From Streptomyces sp. NBC_00190 (GTDB taxonomy: Bacteria; Actinomycetota; Actinomycetes; Streptomycetales; Streptomycetaceae), in assembly GCF_036203305.1 (NCBI RefSeq), contig NZ_CP108131.1, forward strand, positions 4,340,001 to 4,404,000: a stretch of 64,000 nt of DNA, written 5' to 3'. Shown here one piece after another: positions 6,669-17,464 of this stretch; the first letter of the stretch is position 1; each line of letters opens with the position of its first letter. The notes under the pieces are model-generated. The model was not told the origin of the DNA. It was given only the letters and a program-made list of their open reading frames with translations, and ran no database searches. The position numbers were made by a program, and so were the translations under genes.

Positions 6669-6730
6669 GACCTGATCTTACTCTGTCGGGGTGGGGATTT
6701 GAACCCATGACCTCTCCATCCCGAATGAGG
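6669..6730. repeat. Distal attachment-site repeat (partial tRNA-Pro copy)
   Basis: This matches 13417-13480 over about 60 bases, starting in the tRNA 3' flank (CTTACTCTGTCGGGGTGG) and running through the T arm to the anticodon loop. It has a 2-base gap after GGGGTGG and several substitutions. The D arm and 5' acceptor strand are absent, so it is an att scar, not a tRNA gene. Confidence 0.8.
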
Positions 6731-7006: not shown

Positions 7007-7237
7007 TCAGCGGTTGAGGAGGCGAGTGGCCAGCACCTGGATGATGATGCCGCCGCCGGCGAAGGCGGCTCCCTTGAGGATCTGGATCACCAGCGTCCAG
7101 CGAAGGAAGCGAAGCCGGCGACGCGTCTTCTCCCACAGGGGACCGACGCGTCCCGCGCCGTCGGCGGCAGCGCGGAGCCGCAGGCAGACAGCCTTGATCT
7201 TCCTGGCCAGCCAGGCCAGGAGGGCCTTACTATTCAA
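7007..7237 (-). CDS. Small membrane protein, unknown
   Basis: A 76-residue protein starting with TTG at 7237, preceded by AGGAG with a 7-base spacer. The N-terminal 50 residues are rich in Arg/Lys (LWEKTRRRLRFLRW). One hydrophobic segment follows (VIQILKGAAFAGGGIIIQVL), so it is probably a positively charged, single-pass protein. Codon third positions are strongly G/C, supporting real coding. It lies at the far end of the integrative element, in the same direction as the HTH regulator. No function is assigned. Confidence 0.55.
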   Translation of the reverse strand: MNSKALLAWLARKIKAVCLRLRAAADGAGRVGPLWEKTRRRLRFLRWTLVIQILKGAAFAGGGIIIQVLATRLLNR

Positions 7238-7449: not shown

Positions 7450-8109
7450 CTAGCGGAGTCTGCCGAGGATGATTGCGATTTCCGTCGAGTCCCTCCCGGC
7501 CGATTCTGCTGAACGGATCAGGACTTCCATTTCGGTCTTCATTCCTGCACGTGCAAGGATGTCGGCATATATGCCAACATCCCCTTCGCTCAGTGCCGCC
7601 ACCAGATTCTGCAGATGAGTCTTGCGATCGGCCTCCGTCATCGTCGCCAGGTGTGCGGGTAAATCCGGGTTCGGCGGCGCTGTGCTGTTGCGCCGGTCCC
7701 CCTTGTCGGCAGGGGTGCTGCAGGAACTGTTGCGCCGGTCCCCCTCGCTTCGCGTCCCGCTGCAGGTGCAGCCACCCGTGCATCGGCGGCAGATCGACCG
7801 CCGTGCGTCCTGGAGGAGTGACCCGAGTGCCGTGAACTCATGGACCAGTGCGGCAATATCTCGATCACCCGCCATCCCTCCCAGTGCCAACCCGGACAGC
7901 TCTTCTATGGCCGCCGGACGCGGAAGCCGCCGCCCGTTGAGCCAGTGAGAGAGGAGTGGCGGCGAGATGCGCAGCGCCTTCGCCTTCAGTGCCATCGTAT
8001 CGCCAGGGCGGACGTGGTGGATGAGGCGTTTGAGGGCGTTGGCAAATGCCTGAACCTCTTCCGTGGCCTCAGGTGCACAGGTGGTGCTAATCGATCCAAG
8101 TGATGGCAC
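7450..8109 (-). CDS. HTH (XRE-type) regulator of the element
   Basis: A 219-residue protein with an XRE-like helix-turn-helix near the N-terminus (MALKAKALRISPPLLSHWLN, then GRRLPRPAAIEEL). A cysteine cluster follows (CRRCTGGCTCSG) that could bind zinc, then a low-complexity linker with a repeated GDRRNS motif, and a helical C-terminal part. I prefer the GTG at 8109 because GGAAGGG lies 10 bases upstream. An in-frame GTG at 8178 would add 23 residues. It is divergent from the HNH-ParB-SNF2 operon, with a perfect inverted repeat in the shared control region, so it probably controls that operon (inference). Confidence 0.75.
   Translation of the reverse strand: MPSLGSISTTCAPEATEEVQAFANALKRLIHHVRPGDTMALKAKALRISPPLLSHWLNGRRLPRPAAIEELSGLALGGMAGDRDIAALVHEFTALGSLLQDARRSICRRCTGGCTCSGTRSEGDRRNSSCSTPADKGDRRNSTAPPNPDLPAHLATMTEADRKTHLQNLVAALSEGDVGIYADILARAGMKTEMEVLIRSAESAGRDSTEIAIILGRLR
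7685..7745. repeat. 19-base direct repeat inside the regulator gene
   Basis: CTGTTGCGCCGGTCCCCCT occurs at 7685-7703 and 7727-7745. It encodes the duplicated GDRRNS motif of the regulator's linker and indicates a recent internal duplication. Confidence 0.8.
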
Positions 8110-8235
8110 GCCAAACGAACCCTTCCGCTCGCCCGAGATTGCCCATGGAGAACCGGTGATCACCTGAAGCCTAGCCACTCACCAGCCCGGGGGTGCAAAA
8201 TTCCGCGCTTTTCCCTGACTACTTTTAGAGGAGTG

Positions 8236-8261: not shown

Positions 8262-8435
8262 GGTGGCAAAACGGATCTTTACGGAGCCGCTTTCTTTCCT
8301 TGTTTGAGTAAAGATTGATAACCGCTGGAATAAGGGGGTGGGGTCGTGCTAGGAATGAAGGTCCCCAGTCCCCAGTCCCCTGCTCACCTGTGCCACCCAG
8401 GGCCTCCCGCCGGGAGGCCCGCGAATGGAGATGTC

Positions 8436-9113
8436 ATGCCGTCCTGGCAGGATGCCGGCCTCGGAACGATGAAGCGCGTGGCCCTTTGGCTGGTCTCTGA
8501 AGTGGGCGAAGGCAGCACCTTTACCAAGGAGGAGCTGCGAGCCGCCTTTCCCGGGGTGTCCCAAGTCGACCGCCGCATGCGAGACCTCCGGGATTTCGGT
8601 TGGCGCATCGACACCAGCAGGGAAGACGTGGGATTGGACTCTCACGAGCAGCGCTTTGTGAAGCCTGGTGACCCCGTCTGGGAGCCGGGTCGCGCGACCC
8701 GCAGGGCAGGCACGATCGCGATCGGCGCAGGGCGTCGGCGTGAGGTGCTGGCTAGGGACGGGTACATGTGCCGTTCCTGCGGTATCGCCCCCGGCGATAC
8801 CTACGCCGGCACCTACGAGGCAGCCCAGCTCGACATCGCGCGCAGAGAAGTAGTGAAGCCGGACGGCACCAAAGCCACGGAACTGGTCACCGAGTGCAAG
8901 CGGTGCAGGGTGGGAGGCAGGTCGCTCGCGGTGGATCTGGACAAGGTGCTCACGGCAGCCGCTTCCCTCGACTCAGCCGAGCGCGGCGTACTGTCCGACT
9001 GGGTGGCGGCCGACCAGCGGGAGTTCAGCCGCCTGGAGCAGATCTGGAGTGACTACCGCTCTCTGCCTGAGGAGTCACGAACGCAGTTCCGGGCGGAACT
9101 GGGACTCGACTGA
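8436..9113 (+). CDS. Winged-helix plus degenerate HNH/zinc-knuckle protein
   Basis: A 225-residue protein starting at ATG 8436, with GGAG 5 bases upstream. Residues about 10-80 look like a winged-helix or HTH module (EELRAAFPGVSQVDRRMRDL, then RDFGWRIDT). Residues about 100-165 form a treble-clef-like unit with Cys112/Cys115 (YMCRSCG) and Cys154/Cys157 (ECKRCR), the layout of HNH nucleases. The histidine normally expected in the DH(I/V) position is missing: the segment reads AQLDIARREVV with no histidine between the cysteine pairs. It may therefore bind DNA without cutting it, or use other residues. It is the first gene of a three-gene operon with ParB-like and SNF2 partners. Confidence 0.75.
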   Translation: MPSWQDAGLGTMKRVALWLVSEVGEGSTFTKEELRAAFPGVSQVDRRMRDLRDFGWRIDTSREDVGLDSHEQRFVKPGDPVWEPGRATRRAGTIAIGAGRRREVLARDGYMCRSCGIAPGDTYAGTYEAAQLDIARREVVKPDGTKATELVTECKRCRVGGRSLAVDLDKVLTAAASLDSAERGVLSDWVAADQREFSRLEQIWSDYRSLPEESRTQFRAELGLD

Positions 9114-9172
9114 GCATCCCGGTAGATCGGAACAACCCTTGTACGAACAAGCACGAAAGCAGGAGCGAGTAC

Positions 9173-10588
9173 ATGGCCAAGGGCTACGGTCTGCCGCCGG
9201 GTGCCGAAGAGAACCGCGCCCTCGTCCGGTCCCGGCTGGAGGAGATCGCGGCCGGCGGCAGCCCCCGCGAGACCTTCACTGTCGAGTGGAGGGGCGGCTC
9301 GGAGCACCTGGAGGTCATCCAGATGCCAGTGGGCAACCTCTACTACAACCCGGCAACCCACCGCATCCGCGCGCAGGCCGGCCACGACCCGAAGCAGGCG
9401 GAGGCACTCGCGGACGACCCTTGGAGCAGTGACAGCCAGGCATACCTGGACCGCCTCCTGCAAGTGCTCCCGGCAGACCCCGCCCGGACTGATCCTGAGT
9501 TCGACGAGCTGACAGCGAGTCTGAAGGAGTACGGGCAGACGGATCCCGGCCTGATTACTCACGAAGGCATCCTCGTCAACGGAAACACCCGGCGTGCTGC
9601 CCTGATGCAGCTCTACGGCCCTAACCACGCCATGCGTGTAGCCGTTCTGCCGCCTTCCTGCGACTGGCAAGACATCGCCGCAATCGAACTGTCGCTCCAG
9701 CTGCGCAAGGAGCACCGGCGGGATTACTCCTACATCAACCGGTTGCTCGCGGTTCAGGAGCTAGTGGATCAAGGCACGCCACTCGCCGTCATCGCGGCTA
9801 CCTTCCGTACGACCGCAGAGCGCTGCCGGCAGGACCAGTGGGTGCTGGCCTGCATCCAGTCACTCATCGAACGGAGCAAGACGGCAGGCGAGCAGCTGTC
9901 ATTGGTTGCTTTCGAGGATCATGCTGAGAAGTTCCGAGAACTGCAGCGTGCCTACGCCAAGCAGTATGCAGTGAACCCAGAGAAGGCCGAACTGCTGCTG
10001 GAGAACCGGCTGGCAGCCATGCTCCTGGGCTTCGCCAAGACCGACGTCCGCTTCATCGATCACGATTTCGCTGGCCTGTACCTCTCCAAGAAGTTGCCAG
10101 CCAGCCAAGTTCCAGCTGAGACTTCGGCGACTGTAGCCATCCCCGGTCTGGGGCGTGCGGTGAAGGGTCCGTCCGCCCCCCTTAGCGCGGCTAAGGCACT
10201 AACGGACTCCGTCCTGCACGCACGAGCTGTCAGCCAACCCGGCAGCGCGGCCCCGCCGGAGGCTGCGGCGCAGGCCCAAAATGAGATCAGCCGGCTGCGT
10301 GCGGCGATGGATGAGGCCATCGCCAACGTCGGGCGTGACGCGCGAATCAAGAAGCGCAAGCAGGCAGCACCTGCCCGCCTTGCCGACGCCGGCCGCGACA
10401 TCGAGCAGTGCGTCACCGATTTGGTCATGTCCCGCGCGCAGCGAAGCCTGGATGAGGAGTCGTTCGACGACGCCGTCGCTGACCTGAGGCAGAAGCTGGA
10501 GAAGCTTGCCATCGAGGCCAGGCGAACTGTGCAGCACCCCGGAGACGGCGTGGCCTGGCTCCTTGAGACGTTCGGGAAGGCGCGTTAA
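9173..10588 (+). CDS. ParB/sulfiredoxin-fold domain protein
   Basis: A 471-residue protein. Residues about 45-165 resemble the ParB N-terminal (sulfiredoxin-like) fold: VIQMPVGNLYYNPATHRIR, a long insert, LTASLKEYGQTDPGLITHEG, then VNGNTRRAAL (residues 135-144), equivalent to the GxRRxxA nucleotide-binding box. A helical DNA-binding-like part follows (RLLAVQELVDQGTPLAVIA). The C-terminal third is helical and charged, probably coiled coil (residues about 355-455). It sits 59 bases after the HNH-like gene and directly abuts the helicase gene. In other systems such domains act as CTPase/NTPase clamps or nucleases; which applies here is not known. It is not a chromosome-partition ParB, since no ParA partner is present. 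Confidence 0.75.
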   Translation: MAKGYGLPPGAEENRALVRSRLEEIAAGGSPRETFTVEWRGGSEHLEVIQMPVGNLYYNPATHRIRAQAGHDPKQAEALADDPWSSDSQAYLDRLLQVLPADPARTDPEFDELTASLKEYGQTDPGLITHEGILVNGNTRRAALMQLYGPNHAMRVAVLPPSCDWQDIAAIELSLQLRKEHRRDYSYINRLLAVQELVDQGTPLAVIAATFRTTAERCRQDQWVLACIQSLIERSKTAGEQLSLVAFEDHAEKFRELQRAYAKQYAVNPEKAELLLENRLAAMLLGFAKTDVRFIDHDFAGLYLSKKLPASQVPAETSATVAIPGLGRAVKGPSAPLSAAKALTDSVLHARAVSQPGSAAPPEAAAQAQNEISRLRAAMDEAIANVGRDARIKKRKQAAPARLADAGRDIEQCVTDLVMSRAQRSLDEESFDDAVADLRQKLEKLAIEARRTVQHPGDGVAWLLETFGKAR

Positions 10589-12409
10589 GTGGCCGAGGAG
10601 CCCAGTCTGACGATCGGCTTCGACGTTACCCGTACGCAGACTGCGCTGCGTACCGTGCCTGAGTGCCGCGGCGCGCTCGGGCAGCTGGTTGCCAGTTTCC
10701 CCAACGGCCGTATGACCGACAGGCTCTCTGCGACTGTCCCTATCGACAGCTTCCTCGCAAGCCTCAGCGCTCTCGGGACCTGGCCCCGGCCGGACACTGT
10801 CATCTGGGAAGACGACTTCCGCCTCCTAGCCACCGAGATGCTTGACACGGCTGACACTGCGGAACGGCTCCTCAGCGGTTCGCCCGACGAGGACACCGTC
10901 GAGCCGGAATCGGTTCCGGCTCTGCTGGGCGACGACTGGACCGGCCCTCTCACCCCGTTCCAGCTCCGCGACGTAGCTCGACTGCTCTCGGTCGGCCACG
11001 GAGCCAACTTCAGTGTGCCGGGCGCCGGCAAGACCCGTGTCTCCCTCGCTGCCTTCTCTGCGCTCCAAAGGCGCGGAGTGGTGGCTCGCATGCTTGTGGT
11101 GAGTCCCAAGTCCGCCTACGAGGCGTGGCAGGAGGAAGCCAAGCAGTGCTTCTCCACTCCGCTCGACGTGCAGGTGCTCGGCAAGTCGGTGCCGGCCTCG
11201 GCGGACATCCTCCTTGTCAACTACGAGCGCTTGGACCGGGCTCTGGCCGGGTTGTCCCAATGGTTGAGGGCGGCTCCTGTGATGCTCATCCTCGATGAGG
11301 CGCACCGCATGAAGCTCGGCGGTGCGGGAGTGTACGGTGCCGCATGCATGGCGCTGGGCCCCCTCAGCCGAGTCCGGATGATTCTCAGCGGCACCCCTGC
11401 ACCCAATGGCGCCAAGGATCTGGAGAACCTGTTCTCCTTCGTCTGGCCGGGGCATGGGCGGCGTGTGGTGACACAGGCTGTCGACGGCGGCGATCTCGCC
11501 CATGCCAGCCAGGTACTGCGCCCCATGTATACGCGGACGACCAAGGATGAGCTGGGACTCCCCCCAGTGGAGACACGGGTGCGCCGCATTCCGATGCCGC
11601 CGCTGCACCGCGAAATCTATGACGCGCTCATGGGCCAGTTCTCGGCCAGGGCGATGGCCGACAGGGCTGACTTCGAGGCACTCGGCAAGTCGGCGCTGCG
11701 CCTGCTGATGGCAGCGACCAGCCCAGCCCTGCTCGTGGCTGGCTCAACACGCCATGAGCCGCTGCACTTCCGCGTCCCACCGCTGGAGGCGGCCGAAGGA
11801 GACTCGCTCACCATGCTTCTCCGGAAGCTCCCTGACTACGAGCTGCCGCCCAAGTACCAAGAGGCTCTCTCCATCGTTTCTGCTAATGCCTCCGCTGGGC
11901 GCAAGACCCTGGTGTGGACGAGTTTCGTCCGCAGCATTACTTCACTCCAAGCTCTACTGGCCCCGTTCCAGCCAGCGGCCGTGCACGGCGGAACACCAGA
12001 TCGGGAAGCTGAGCTCCGCCGCTTCCGGGAAGATCCGGACTGCACGGTCTTGATCTCTAATCCGGCGACCCTTGGCGAGGGCATCAGCCTCCATCAGGTC
12101 TGTCATGACGCGGTTTACGTCGATCGTGACTTCCAGGCGGGCCGGTTCCTGCAGAGTCTGGACCGCATCCACCGCCTCGGCCTCGATCCGGGCACGCAGA
12201 CGCGGGTCACAGTGCTCGCGGCCGAGGGGAGTGTCGATGACGTGGTCGCACTTCGGTTGGCGGAGAAGCTGGACTTCATGGGGCGAATCCTCGATGACCC
12301 GGAGGTGCAGCAACTCGGCGATCCCGAAGAAGAGGTGCCGCTTGCCGCGGGGATGGACGCTGCCGACGTGCGAGCACTCCTGGAGTACCTCGGCACAGGG
12401 GTGGTCTAG
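10589..12409 (+). CDS. SNF2-type DEAD/DEAH helicase-translocase
   Basis: A 606-residue superfamily 2 ATPase. Walker A is VPGAGKTR (Lys148), motif II is DEAH (Asp236 onward), motif III is LSGTPAPNG, and motif VI is QSLDRIHRLG (residues 522-531). These signatures and the two RecA lobes fit SNF2/Rad54-like dsDNA translocases. The first 120 residues are a family-specific extension. The GTG start follows the ParB-like stop with no gap (TAAGTG), so translation is tightly coupled. With the two upstream genes it probably forms one DNA-acting complex. No methyltransferase or classical nuclease is encoded beside it. Confidence 0.85.
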   Translation: MAEEPSLTIGFDVTRTQTALRTVPECRGALGQLVASFPNGRMTDRLSATVPIDSFLASLSALGTWPRPDTVIWEDDFRLLATEMLDTADTAERLLSGSPDEDTVEPESVPALLGDDWTGPLTPFQLRDVARLLSVGHGANFSVPGAGKTRVSLAAFSALQRRGVVARMLVVSPKSAYEAWQEEAKQCFSTPLDVQVLGKSVPASADILLVNYERLDRALAGLSQWLRAAPVMLILDEAHRMKLGGAGVYGAACMALGPLSRVRMILSGTPAPNGAKDLENLFSFVWPGHGRRVVTQAVDGGDLAHASQVLRPMYTRTTKDELGLPPVETRVRRIPMPPLHREIYDALMGQFSARAMADRADFEALGKSALRLLMAATSPALLVAGSTRHEPLHFRVPPLEAAEGDSLTMLLRKLPDYELPPKYQEALSIVSANASAGRKTLVWTSFVRSITSLQALLAPFQPAAVHGGTPDREAELRRFREDPDCTVLISNPATLGEGISLHQVCHDAVYVDRDFQAGRFLQSLDRIHRLGLDPGTQTRVTVLAAEGSVDDVVALRLAEKLDFMGRILDDPEVQQLGDPEEEVPLAAGMDAADVRALLEYLGTGVV

Positions 12410-12473
12410 TCTCGGTTAGACATCGACTCAGAGGCCCGTCTCGCAGCAGTGCCTCGGCGGCGTCCGCTTATCC

Positions 12474-13356
12474 ATGGCCATGGCGTGCATGGTTCCCATG
12501 TCAGCTTCGCTGCACGCTTGGCTTTGGCCGACGTGGACAGGAGCGCCAGCCGACCAACTGAGCGGGGAGGACGTCGACAAGTGGCTCGCCGAGAAGGCCA
12601 AGACGCTCAGCACCCGCACCCTCCGGGCGATCCACTCCTGCCTGAACCGCGCCGTGAGTCGGCCGTGGTGCGGGACAAGGTGAAGCGGAACATCGTGGAG
12701 CTGTGCTCCATCCCCACCGGCCAGCCTGGCCGCCCGTCGAAGGCGCTCCGGCTGGCCGAGGCCGAAGCGGTGCTCAAGGCCGCCGAGGGTACGTCCGCCT
12801 ACGCGTACATCGTGGTGGCCCTGCTGACCGGCGCCCGGATCGAAGAGATGCGGGCGCTCACCTGGGACCACGTCTTCCTGAAGGGGGACCCTACTGCGGT
12901 GCCGCCCGTGCCGCCGCACATCGCGGCGTGGCGGTCGGTTCGCTCCACCGGGGACACCAAGACCAAGAAGTCGCGCCGGACGATCGCCCTACCGGCCAGG
13001 TGCGTGGATGCCCTGTGGCAGCAGTTCGAAGATCAAGGGTGGGACCGGCTGGCCGCTGGTGATCAGTGGACGGAGAAGGGGCTCGTCTTCTCCTCCGCCA
13101 CGGGGTCCGAGCTCGACTCGACCAACGTCCGGCGCGCCTTCCGGCAGGCGATCACCGGTGCCGAGGGGGTCGACGCGAAGGAGTGGACCCCGCGGGAGCA
13201 GCTTCGTCTCGTTGCTCTCCGACAAGGGGGTTCCGCTCGAAGAGATCTCCCGGCTCGTCGGGCACCGAGGCGGTCTACCGGAAGCAGATCCGGCCCGTGA
13301 TCCAGACCGGGGCCACGGCCATGGACGAGATCTTCAAGAACGCTCGGAAGCCGTAG
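12474..13356 (+). pseudogene. int: Tyrosine integrase, truncated and frameshifted
   Basis: Remains of a phage/AICE tyrosine recombinase that would have integrated the element at tRNA-Pro. The N-terminal domain is gone. Core-binding residues (DVDKWLAEKAKTLSTRTLR) are in frame 3. After a 1-base loss near 12662 the catalytic domain continues in frame 2 (VALLTGARIEEMRALTWDHV, containing the first catalytic Arg). Near 13198 about 8 bases are missing, removing the HxxR arginine box. SFVSLLSDKGVPLEEISRLV then reads in frame 3. A further loss near 13265 puts the catalytic-tyrosine region EAVYRKQIRPVI in frame 1. It is adjacent to the att repeat, as in functional elements. Confidence 0.88.
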
Positions 13357-13416: not shown

Positions 13417-13480
13417 CACCTGGTCTTACTCTGTCGGGGTGGCGGGATTTGAACCCACGACCTCTTCGTCCCGAACGAAG
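13417..13480. repeat. tRNA-proximal attachment-site repeat
   Basis: This is the copy of the element's direct repeat that overlaps the 3' half of the intact tRNA-Pro gene and its 3' flank. It pairs with 6669-6730. Confidence 0.8.
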
Positions 13481-13507
13481 CGCGCTGCCAAGCTGCGCTA
13501 CACCCCG
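13434..13507 (-). tRNA. tRNA-Pro, anticodon CGG
   Basis: A complete 74-base cloverleaf on the minus strand. The acceptor strands CGGGGTG and CACCCCG pair, with A as discriminator. The D arm is GCGC/GCGC. The anticodon arm is CTTCG-TTCGGGA-CGAAG, giving anticodon CGG (reads CCG codons). The T arm contains GTTCAAATC. No CCA is encoded. The gene is intact although the element is inserted at its 3' end. Confidence 0.95.
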
Positions 13508-15181: not shown

Positions 15182-17464
15182 CTACTGGGTGTCGCGTCCG
15201 CCGATCAGGCCCGGCGGGATCGTGATCCCGGGGAACGGGTTGGTCGGATCGCTACCGCCCGTGGGCCCGCCGGTCGTCTGCCCGCCGGGCCGGCCGCCGG
15301 GCTTGCCGTCGCCCGGCTTGCCGGGCTTGTTCGGGTTCGTCGGGGAAGTGGGTGGCTTGTTGCCGCGGGGACCGCCGGTCGGAGGCAGCGGTTCCGGGAT
15401 GCTGACCGTGGTGAAGGAGAGGGCCTCGCGCCCGGACAGCGCGCCCGTGACCGCGTCCTTCCAGATCGGGCCGGGCAGGCCGCCGCCGAAGACCTTCTCG
15501 TACGGCTTGCCGCCGATCACGATGTCCTCCATCGTGATCTTCTTCGCGCCGCCCGAGCCGACCCACACCGCGCTCGAGATGTTCGGGGTGTAGCCGACGA
15601 ACCAGGCGTTGTACCGGGAGTCCGTCGTACCGGTCTTGCCGGCGCTGTCGCGGTCGGTCAGACCGGCCCGCTCACCCGTACCGGAGTCGACCACTCCGCG
15701 CAGCAGGGTGTTGATGGTGTCGGCCGTGTCCTGCTCCATGGCCCGGTCGCACTTGGACTTCGGCACCGCCAGCGCCTTGCCGTGGGAGTCGGTGATCGAC
15801 TCGATGGCGACCGGGGTGCAGTAGATGCCCCGGTTGGCGAAGGTCGCGTACGCGTTGGCCATGGTCAGCGGGGAGAGCTCGGCGGAGCCCAGCGCGATCG
15901 ACGGGGCCTCCGGCAGCTTCGAGCCGTCGGCCGGGGTCACGCCGAGCTTCTGCGTCATCTCCGTCACCGGGCAGAGGCCGATCTCGCCGATCATCTCGAC
16001 GAAGTACGTGTTGATGGACTTCTCCATCGCCGTCTTCAGCGCGTACGGACCGATCTCGTCCTCGGTCTCGTTCTTGGCCGTCTGGATCTTGCCGTTGATG
16101 GGCAGGTTCAGCCACTGCGACCCGTCGCACTTCTGGATCGGCGTCGGGTAGTCGATCTTGTTCGGCGCCTGGTACACCTTCGTCGGCGGCACGCCCCGCT
16201 CCAGGGCGGCCGCCGCGATGAACGGCTTGAAGGTCGAGCCCACCTGGAAGCCGAAGTTCGAGCCGCCCATCCGCTTGTCCACGGAGAAGTTGATCTGCGT
16301 CTCGTTCTTCCCGAAGCCGTACGGCTTGGACTGGCCCATCGCCAGCACCCGTCCGGTGCCCGGCTGGACCATGGTCACAGCCGTCGCGATCGCGTCCTCC
16401 TGGTAGACGTGGTCCTTGATCGACTCGTTGGCCGCGTCCTGCGACTGCGGGTCCAGGGTCGTCCGTACGGTCAGGCCGCCCTGGTTCCAGATCTTCGCCC
16501 GCTCCTCGCGCGTCTTGCCGAAGACCGCGTCGGTCAGGAAGGTGTTGCGCACGTAGTCGCAGAAGAAGCCCGCGCCCTTGACCGCGGTGATGCAGCCGTT
16601 CTTGGGCCGGGTCACCTTCAGCGTGACCGGCTTCGCCTTCGCCGCGTCGGCCTCCGCCTGGGAGACGTCCTTGATGTCGGCCATCCGCTGGAGGACGATG
16701 TTGCGGCGCTTGAGCGCCTCCTGCGCGTCGTTCACCGGGTCGTACCGGCTCGGCGACTGGACGACGCCCGCGAGCAGCGCGGACTCGTCCAGGGTCAGGT
16801 CCTTGGCCGGCTTGCTGAAGTAGCGCTGGGCGGCGGATTCGATTCCGTAGGCCTGCTGGCCGAAGTACGTGATGTTGAGGTAGTTCTCGAGGATCTTCTT
16901 CTTCCCGAGCTCCTCCTCGACCTGGATCGCGTACTTCAGCTCGCGGATCTTGCGGCCGAGGCTCTTCTCCTGGGCCTCGCGCACCTTTGTCTCGTCGTCG
17001 CCGGCCTCTTCGACGAACACGTTCTTCACGTACTGCTGGGTGAGCGTGGATGCGCCCTGAGCGGCGCCGCCCTCCTGCGCGTTGCGGTTGACCGCGCGCA
17101 GGATGCCCTTCATGTCGACCGCGCCGTGCTCGTAGAAACGCGAGTCCTCGATGGCGACGATCGCCTTCTGCATGTACGGGGAGATCGCCGTGAGCGGGAC
17201 CACCTGCCGGTCGCGCGAATAGACAGTGGCGATCAAGCCACCCTCGGCGTCCAGAATCGTGGTCCGCTGACTCAGCGGCGGAGTCTTGAGATTGGCCGGG
17301 ATCTCGTCGAATCCCTCGACCGTGCCCTTGGCCGCGAGTCCCAGGGCGCCTGCCGCCGGAATCGCCATGCCGGCCAGCACAACTCCGGAGAGAACGGACA
17401 CCCCGAGGAACTTGGCGGCCTGCTGGCTCCCCGTGAGCCCGCCGCCCGAGCGCTTCTTTCCCAT
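15182..17464 (-). CDS. Class A penicillin-binding protein (transglycosylase/transpeptidase)
   Basis: A 760-residue bifunctional PBP that polymerises and crosslinks peptidoglycan at the outer face of the membrane. There is a short basic N-terminus and a TM segment at about 17-42. The GT51 domain has catalytic Glu106 in VAIEDSRFYEHGAVD. The transpeptidase domain has SxxK at Ser410 (GSTFKPF), SxN at 483-485 (KSINTY) and KTG at 610-612 (AGKTGTTD). The C-terminal 65 residues are a Gly/Pro/Thr/Lys-rich low-complexity tail. It is the neighbour of wblA, as the ponA2-whiB4 pair is in mycobacteria (from memory). The convergent yqeY-like gene ends just beyond its stop. Confidence 0.95.
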   Translation of the reverse strand: MGKKRSGGGLTGSQQAAKFLGVSVLSGVVLAGMAIPAAGALGLAAKGTVEGFDEIPANLKTPPLSQRTTILDAEGGLIATVYSRDRQVVPLTAISPYMQKAIVAIEDSRFYEHGAVDMKGILRAVNRNAQEGGAAQGASTLTQQYVKNVFVEEAGDDETKVREAQEKSLGRKIRELKYAIQVEEELGKKKILENYLNITYFGQQAYGIESAAQRYFSKPAKDLTLDESALLAGVVQSPSRYDPVNDAQEALKRRNIVLQRMADIKDVSQAEADAAKAKPVTLKVTRPKNGCITAVKGAGFFCDYVRNTFLTDAVFGKTREERAKIWNQGGLTVRTTLDPQSQDAANESIKDHVYQEDAIATAVTMVQPGTGRVLAMGQSKPYGFGKNETQINFSVDKRMGGSNFGFQVGSTFKPFIAAAALERGVPPTKVYQAPNKIDYPTPIQKCDGSQWLNLPINGKIQTAKNETEDEIGPYALKTAMEKSINTYFVEMIGEIGLCPVTEMTQKLGVTPADGSKLPEAPSIALGSAELSPLTMANAYATFANRGIYCTPVAIESITDSHGKALAVPKSKCDRAMEQDTADTINTLLRGVVDSGTGERAGLTDRDSAGKTGTTDSRYNAWFVGYTPNISSAVWVGSGGAKKITMEDIVIGGKPYEKVFGGGLPGPIWKDAVTGALSGREALSFTTVSIPEPLPPTGGPRGNKPPTSPTNPNKPGKPGDGKPGGRPGGQTTGGPTGGSDPTNPFPGITIPPGLIGGRDTQ

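Follow-up and report, generated by a model that had tools for sequence, protein, structure and literature searches.

A ParB-fold/SNF2 gene trio on a Streptomyces tRNA-Pro island, from a family linked to C5-methyltransferase genes

The three genes and their predicted products

In a 64,000-nucleotide stretch of Streptomyces sp. NBC_00190 DNA (contig NZ_CP108131.1; hereafter the window), we analysed three adjacent genes, here called the trio:

8436–9113, + strand: slot-1 (HNH-like) protein, ATG start, 225 amino acids
9173–10588, + strand: ParB/sulfiredoxin-fold protein, 471 amino acids, with an N domain, a helix-turn-helix (HTH) domain and long C-terminal helices
10589–12409, + strand: SNF2-family ATPase/translocase, GTG start, 606 amino acids, motor motifs intact

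An earlier note on this DNA had described three co-directional genes separated by 59 bases (HNH-like/ParB) and 0 bases (ParB/SNF2), and these coordinates were reproduced exactly. A longer HNH-like open reading frame (ORF) starting at 8346 was rejected, as most relatives start at or near MPSW.

The AlphaFold2 model of the slot-1 protein (predicted local distance difference test, pLDDT, 84) comprises a winged helix at residues ~6–77 followed by a degenerate HNH/treble-clef domain with a Cys4 site at residues ~94–171. This agrees with the winged helix and Cys4 treble-clef unit proposed in the note, for the HNH-like part modestly. The four cysteines are invariant in 58 aligned rows, and the catalytic histidine of the beta-beta-alpha motif is absent from all of them; an invariant Arg136-Arg137 pair occupies its expected place in what we take to be the HNH motif, an equivalence drawn by eye. 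VIA-align scores for this domain reached a Z of at most 6.0 (Cap5), no higher than for unrelated rows, so the fold call leans on topology and the cysteine pattern. The model thus lends modest support to an HNH-like/treble-clef fold, and the label "HNH-like" can be kept in that sense. A nuclease role is unlikely, because the catalytic histidine is missing across the family.

The structure model of the ParB-fold protein (pLDDT 87.5) contains a ParB-type N domain and then an HTH domain. Its top Foldseek and VIA matches were ParB-family chains, with ParB, Noc and KorB closest, at Foldseek E-values no better than 1.3e-3; model confidence and matches together support the predicted ParB/sulfiredoxin fold. 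For both this protein and the slot-1 protein, Foldseek returned nothing at E 0.001 or better, no Pfam family matched at E up to 1, and we identified no convincing sequence relative in the PDB. Residues N59, P60, R64, Q122, G137, R140, E172 and R178 are invariant in 64 rows and are compatible with cytidine triphosphate (CTP) binding and clamp closure. Based on the model, we regard the protein as a candidate nucleoside triphosphate-gated DNA clamp. The GERR motif of ParB reads GNTR here when compared by eye.

The third protein was assigned to the SNF2 family by Pfam (E 7e-16). Of 50 aligned members, at least 95% conserve its Walker A (GAGKT), DEAHR and motif VI (QSLDRIHRLG) sequences, in accordance with the SNF2-type translocase originally proposed.

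Linkage to C5-methyltransferase genes and distribution

Among 295 sampled Streptomyces genomes, a search with the ParB protein matched 46, of which 42 were strong (43 places including the window) and 4 weak; a match at 1.8e-4 in genome G013 was left out. A separate genome scan added 14 loci, giving 57 strong-match loci, or 54 distinct places after removal of copies of the same genome (L005/L076, L007/L077 and L013/L081). One locus, L011, ends at a contig edge. Partner counts were obtained by tblastn, and gene calls came from a home-made caller, which in some cases chooses an antisense ORF.

The HNH-like and SNF2 genes adjoin the ParB gene in all 57 strong-match loci (54 distinct places), and a C5-methyltransferase gene (Dcm) lies beside the trio in 42/43 places of the genus sample and 50/54 distinct places overall; PF00145 was confirmed on one Dcm representative. 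The two checks suggested in the earlier note, whether the three genes co-occur and whether other genomes place a methylase or Vsr gene with them, were therefore strongly positive, and its statement that the trio is not restriction-modification (R-M) is not supported for a family that is an R-M partner. Its remark that no methyltransferase is present is correct for the window, whose copy is atypical of the family. Methylase-less trios were found in the window, L001 and L006. In six loci (L052–L057) the HNH-like gene is inverted, and in five of these it is on the Dcm strand, 133–207 bases from Dcm. In one genome (L098) we also observed a second C5-methylase, distant from the trio-linked family and with phage-like neighbours by eye.

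The further partners of the trio vary. NaeI adjoins the trio, Dcm and Vsr in 22/54 distinct places (a count that takes in three loci at 31% identity; L047 was counted without Vsr, whose gene lies just past the stretch covered), and many trios have no NaeI. MORC-like genes adjoin the trio in 10/42 loci, and DUF3883, wherever present, directly follows SNF2. Thirteen minimal loci consist of the trio and Dcm and lack all three restriction partners looked for. No other restriction family was recognised among 43 neighbours of at least 90 amino acids within 2.5 kb of these loci, in a scan that left out clusters f4, f5, f8, f9, f10 and f12 and listed 25 of 45 matching Pfam families; a PIN-domain protein at L074 was among the matches listed. 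At L003 the SNF2 gene is broken and the locus retains NaeI, Vsr and Dcm; the HTH gene and small ORF of this locus (see below) also match across two frames, and a sequencing error is possible.

Three Streptomyces loci and plasmids of Alphaproteobacteria carry weaker ParB relatives (25–30% identity) together with SNF2 at 41–45%. These distant cassettes have the order X-ParB-SNF2-DUF3883, with X present in 7/7 (L058–L060, L091 and L117–L119), and Dcm and Vsr lie near six of the seven. X is a family of proteins of ~280–320 amino acids (410 protein clusters) with no informative name among 120 listed of 410 matches and no Pfam family in four alphaproteobacterial proteins; profile comparison with hhalign detected no homology between X and the HNH-like protein. 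ParB-SNF2 pairs without X also occur near Dcm on a Lactiplantibacillus plasmid and in a Streptococcus phage, where the gene that comes before is similar to BanI/DpnII restriction enzymes. In a Dcm tree the six X-type loci form a clade separate (100/99) from the HNH-type loci (21 hand-picked of 53 family members) and the Dcm that would serve the window trio in trans. This split fits a swappable slot-1 reader, and descent of whole cassettes would explain it equally well.

In a phylum-wide sample with four candidates scored per genome, 3/396 genomes had a match, all of them Streptomyces; entries from Kribbella, Amycolatopsis, Kitasatospora, Nocardia and Saccharothrix also appear in protein searches. 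A viral-contig scan gave 53 pattern matches and no relative, and two weak ParB matches turned up in phage records, one of which was examined.

The island around the window copy

The following features surround the trio:

6670–6728: left attachment-type repeat, partial tRNA-Pro copy, 54/61 identical to 13418–13478
7007–7237, − strand: small basic ORF, 76 amino acids, with a hydrophobic C-terminal segment, downstream of the HTH gene
7450–8178, − strand: HTH regulator, 242 amino acids, divergent from the trio, with weak HTH_31/HTH_3 matches below Pfam cut-offs
12449–13300, + strand: tyrosine integrase remnant, broken, partial PF00589 match
13418–13478: right attachment-type repeat, direct repeat of 6670–6728, overlapping the tRNA-Pro gene
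13433–13507, − strand: tRNA-Pro (cgg), the integration site

GC content at third codon positions (GC3) is 0.66–0.78 in six called island ORFs and 0.93–0.95 in five flanking ORFs. The integrase match to PF00589 spans only profile positions 3–129 of 172, and by eye other frames encode the N- and C-terminal portions of the integrase. The decay of the integrase reported in the earlier note is thus confirmed, as is the orientation of the trio, which faces away from its own HTH regulator. This regulator was matched in 13/13 clade relatives; its family (f8) was clustered in 16/57 loci, and a different HTH family (f4) in 31/57. The small ORF had tblastn matches in 11/13 of the same relatives at 42–86% identity (in two frames in L003) and none in L010 and L079. 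By eye its product may be a membrane protein and possibly a further component of the system.

The ratio of nonsynonymous to synonymous substitution rates (dN/dS) between two methylase-less trio copies was 0.07–0.13, and 0.12–0.16 between the window and L006, about as low as for methylase-linked pairs, with no stops. These values back the proposal that the host keeps the trio. In another species, S. phytophilus (L007), the trio occupies the equivalent tRNA-Pro site, the genes on the tRNA side correspond to those of the window, and NaeI, Vsr and Dcm come after the trio. The window copy is probably a secondary, methylase-less form of the R-M partner family, in which the trio was kept after local loss of the methylase. 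All three genomes with a methylase-less trio, too small a number for a judgement, carry a trio-type Dcm elsewhere that may act in trans (at about 3.184 Mb in the window strain); G000 and G295 have a trio-less NaeI locus and G296 a second complete locus. In L006, a low-GC3 ORF (15338–16456, − strand), DUF262-like by eye, was observed ~2 kb from the methylase-less trio.

Interpretation and comparison with known systems

The linkage, conservation, predicted folds and motifs point to the trio as the unnamed working half of a C5-methylation-gated restriction (anti-phage) system, a reading that we consider reasonably probable. The slot-1 protein would act as DNA reader, the ParB-fold protein as a clamp loaded onto DNA and SNF2 as the translocating motor; a nuclease would be an optional addition, and C5 methylation would gate the whole. 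The DNA-defence or DNA-processing complex suggested earlier accordingly finds its support in association, namely co-occurrence and methylase linkage. If correct, the trio is a half of 5-methylcytosine R-M loci that recurs without having a name, carried by 42/295 sampled Streptomyces genomes, and it ties ParB clamps, known chiefly for their part in chromosome segregation, to restriction. In the window, effector and methylase would then be naturally separated, which makes action in trans directly testable.

Several observations weigh against this reading. Methylase, Vsr and restriction endonuclease are all missing from the window locus, and trans pairing of methylase-less trios rests on three genomes in a genus where NaeI occurs in 45/295 genomes anyway. 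The NaeI R-M system does not need the trio, because 29 of these 45 genomes have no strong trio. No nuclease active site is recognisable within the trio, leaving cleavage in the 13 minimal loci unexplained. Among the neighbours of minimal loci (L045–L088), PADLOC gave matches to mad2 (3), viperin pVip (2), PDC-S07 (1) and dGTPase (1). Within the distant group, the X-type locus L118 has no Dcm or Vsr within 11 kb, and the Streptomyces plasmid locus L090 carries ParB-SNF2-DUF3883 but nothing within 25 kb that matches Dcm, Vsr, the HNH-like protein or X. Co-variation with Dcm (HNH-like 0.19, 5/500 permutations; ParB 0.16, 7/500) is weak within the sample, is confounded by whole-cassette descent and decides nothing. 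Finally, with GNTR in place of GERR, nucleotide hydrolysis may differ from that of ParB.

A more specific and speculative form, to which we give little credence, is restriction without a nuclease. In this model the reader loads a nucleotide-gated ParB clamp, and unmethylated DNA is blocked or stripped as SNF2 drives the clamp along it; nucleases would be plug-ins, and slot 1 a swappable reader changing with the methylase family. The effector cassette would be separable, serving a methylase in trans in this Streptomyces.

The absence of a recognised nuclease site also suits an improbable alternative, in which the trio moderates C5 R-M instead of restricting. It would clear or remodel the host chromosome, for example by taking R-M enzymes off newly replicated unmethylated sites, much like a chromatin remodeller. 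In keeping with this, the solved structures closest in sequence to the SNF2 protein are eukaryotic remodellers, ParB-protein homologues often carry the source name "transcriptional regulator", and many NaeI R-M loci exist without the trio. However, the 13 minimal loci would offer nothing to moderate, and the position of DUF3883 directly after SNF2 also speaks against moderation. Less likely still is type IV-like restriction, an attack on foreign-modified DNA as by GmrSD, which pairs a ParB fold with HNH (PMC10952713). A dispensable linked methylase would fit the window, L001 and L006, whereas the missing DUF262/DUF1524 match and catalytic histidine and the near-constant linkage to a host C5-methylase do not fit. 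We give very little weight to element maintenance, in which a ParB-type module would partition or stabilise integrative elements: the ParB, Noc and KorB likeness and the occurrence of the trio on an island and on plasmids are in its favour, but what recurs in linkage is a C5-methylase gene together with Vsr, the trio is conserved despite integrase decay, and no ParA was recognised among scanned representatives of recurring neighbour families, in a search not aimed at ParA. That the window trio is a remnant, functionless since methylase loss, is equally remote: its lack of a linked partner, the broken integrase and the broken SNF2 of L003, which shows that decay may occur, are countered by the low dN/dS without stops and by the possible sequencing error in L003.

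Turning from the C5-methylation-gated reading to published systems, searches with PADLOC, NCBIfam, Pfam and PHROGs identified no named defence system, all matches being either generic ones to SNF2 and ParB-like proteins or weak ones to HNH, so that, apart from the R-M question, the earlier failure to match a named system holds. The trio was described in no publication recognised in the open-access literature, a search that most subscription journals and REBASE lay outside, nor in the portions considered of PMC10853773, PMC12839542, PMC5512222, PMC3710099, PMC4260502 and PMC3459991. The helicases of DISARM, Zorya, Dpd and Hachiman resemble the SNF2/SF2 motor (E down to 3.6e-14) in the shared ATPase region only; other marker genes of DISARM, Zorya, Dpd and BREX were not found, and the HNH-like and ParB proteins match no partner genes of DISARM, Zorya, Dpd or Hachiman. 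GmrSD and BrxU (DUF262 + DUF1524) share the pairing of ParB/sulfiredoxin-type and HNH-type proteins, whereas neither DUF was among Pfam matches of the window proteins, the catalytic histidine is absent, and the trio adds an SNF2 motor and usually a methylase. From the ParB, Noc and KorB CTP clamps the modelled window protein differs in having no Pfam ParB match, GNTR for GERR and an SNF2 partner. At the NaeI type II R-M loci (PF09126) with Vsr, the trio is an addition to NaeI.

ParBc, HNH, Vsr and C5-methylase domains have been reported near type II R-M genes with paraMORC/TCS-like elements, with ParBc among the nuclease domains (PMC8011034); the part of that source considered here contains no ParB-SNF2 pair or trio, and the window ParB protein has no PF02195 match. 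The nearest published relative is the group of SNF2/MORC-type R-M neighbourhoods with a SWI2/SNF2 helicase, an HNH or EcoRII-like nuclease, a cytosine methylase and Vsr (Iyer et al, 2008; PMC2292703). ParB has no occurrence in the part of that source considered; SNF2, HNH, C5-methylase and Vsr are shared with the trio loci, which are distinguished by a constant ParB-SNF2 pair, MORC-like genes in only some loci and a degenerate HNH-like protein.
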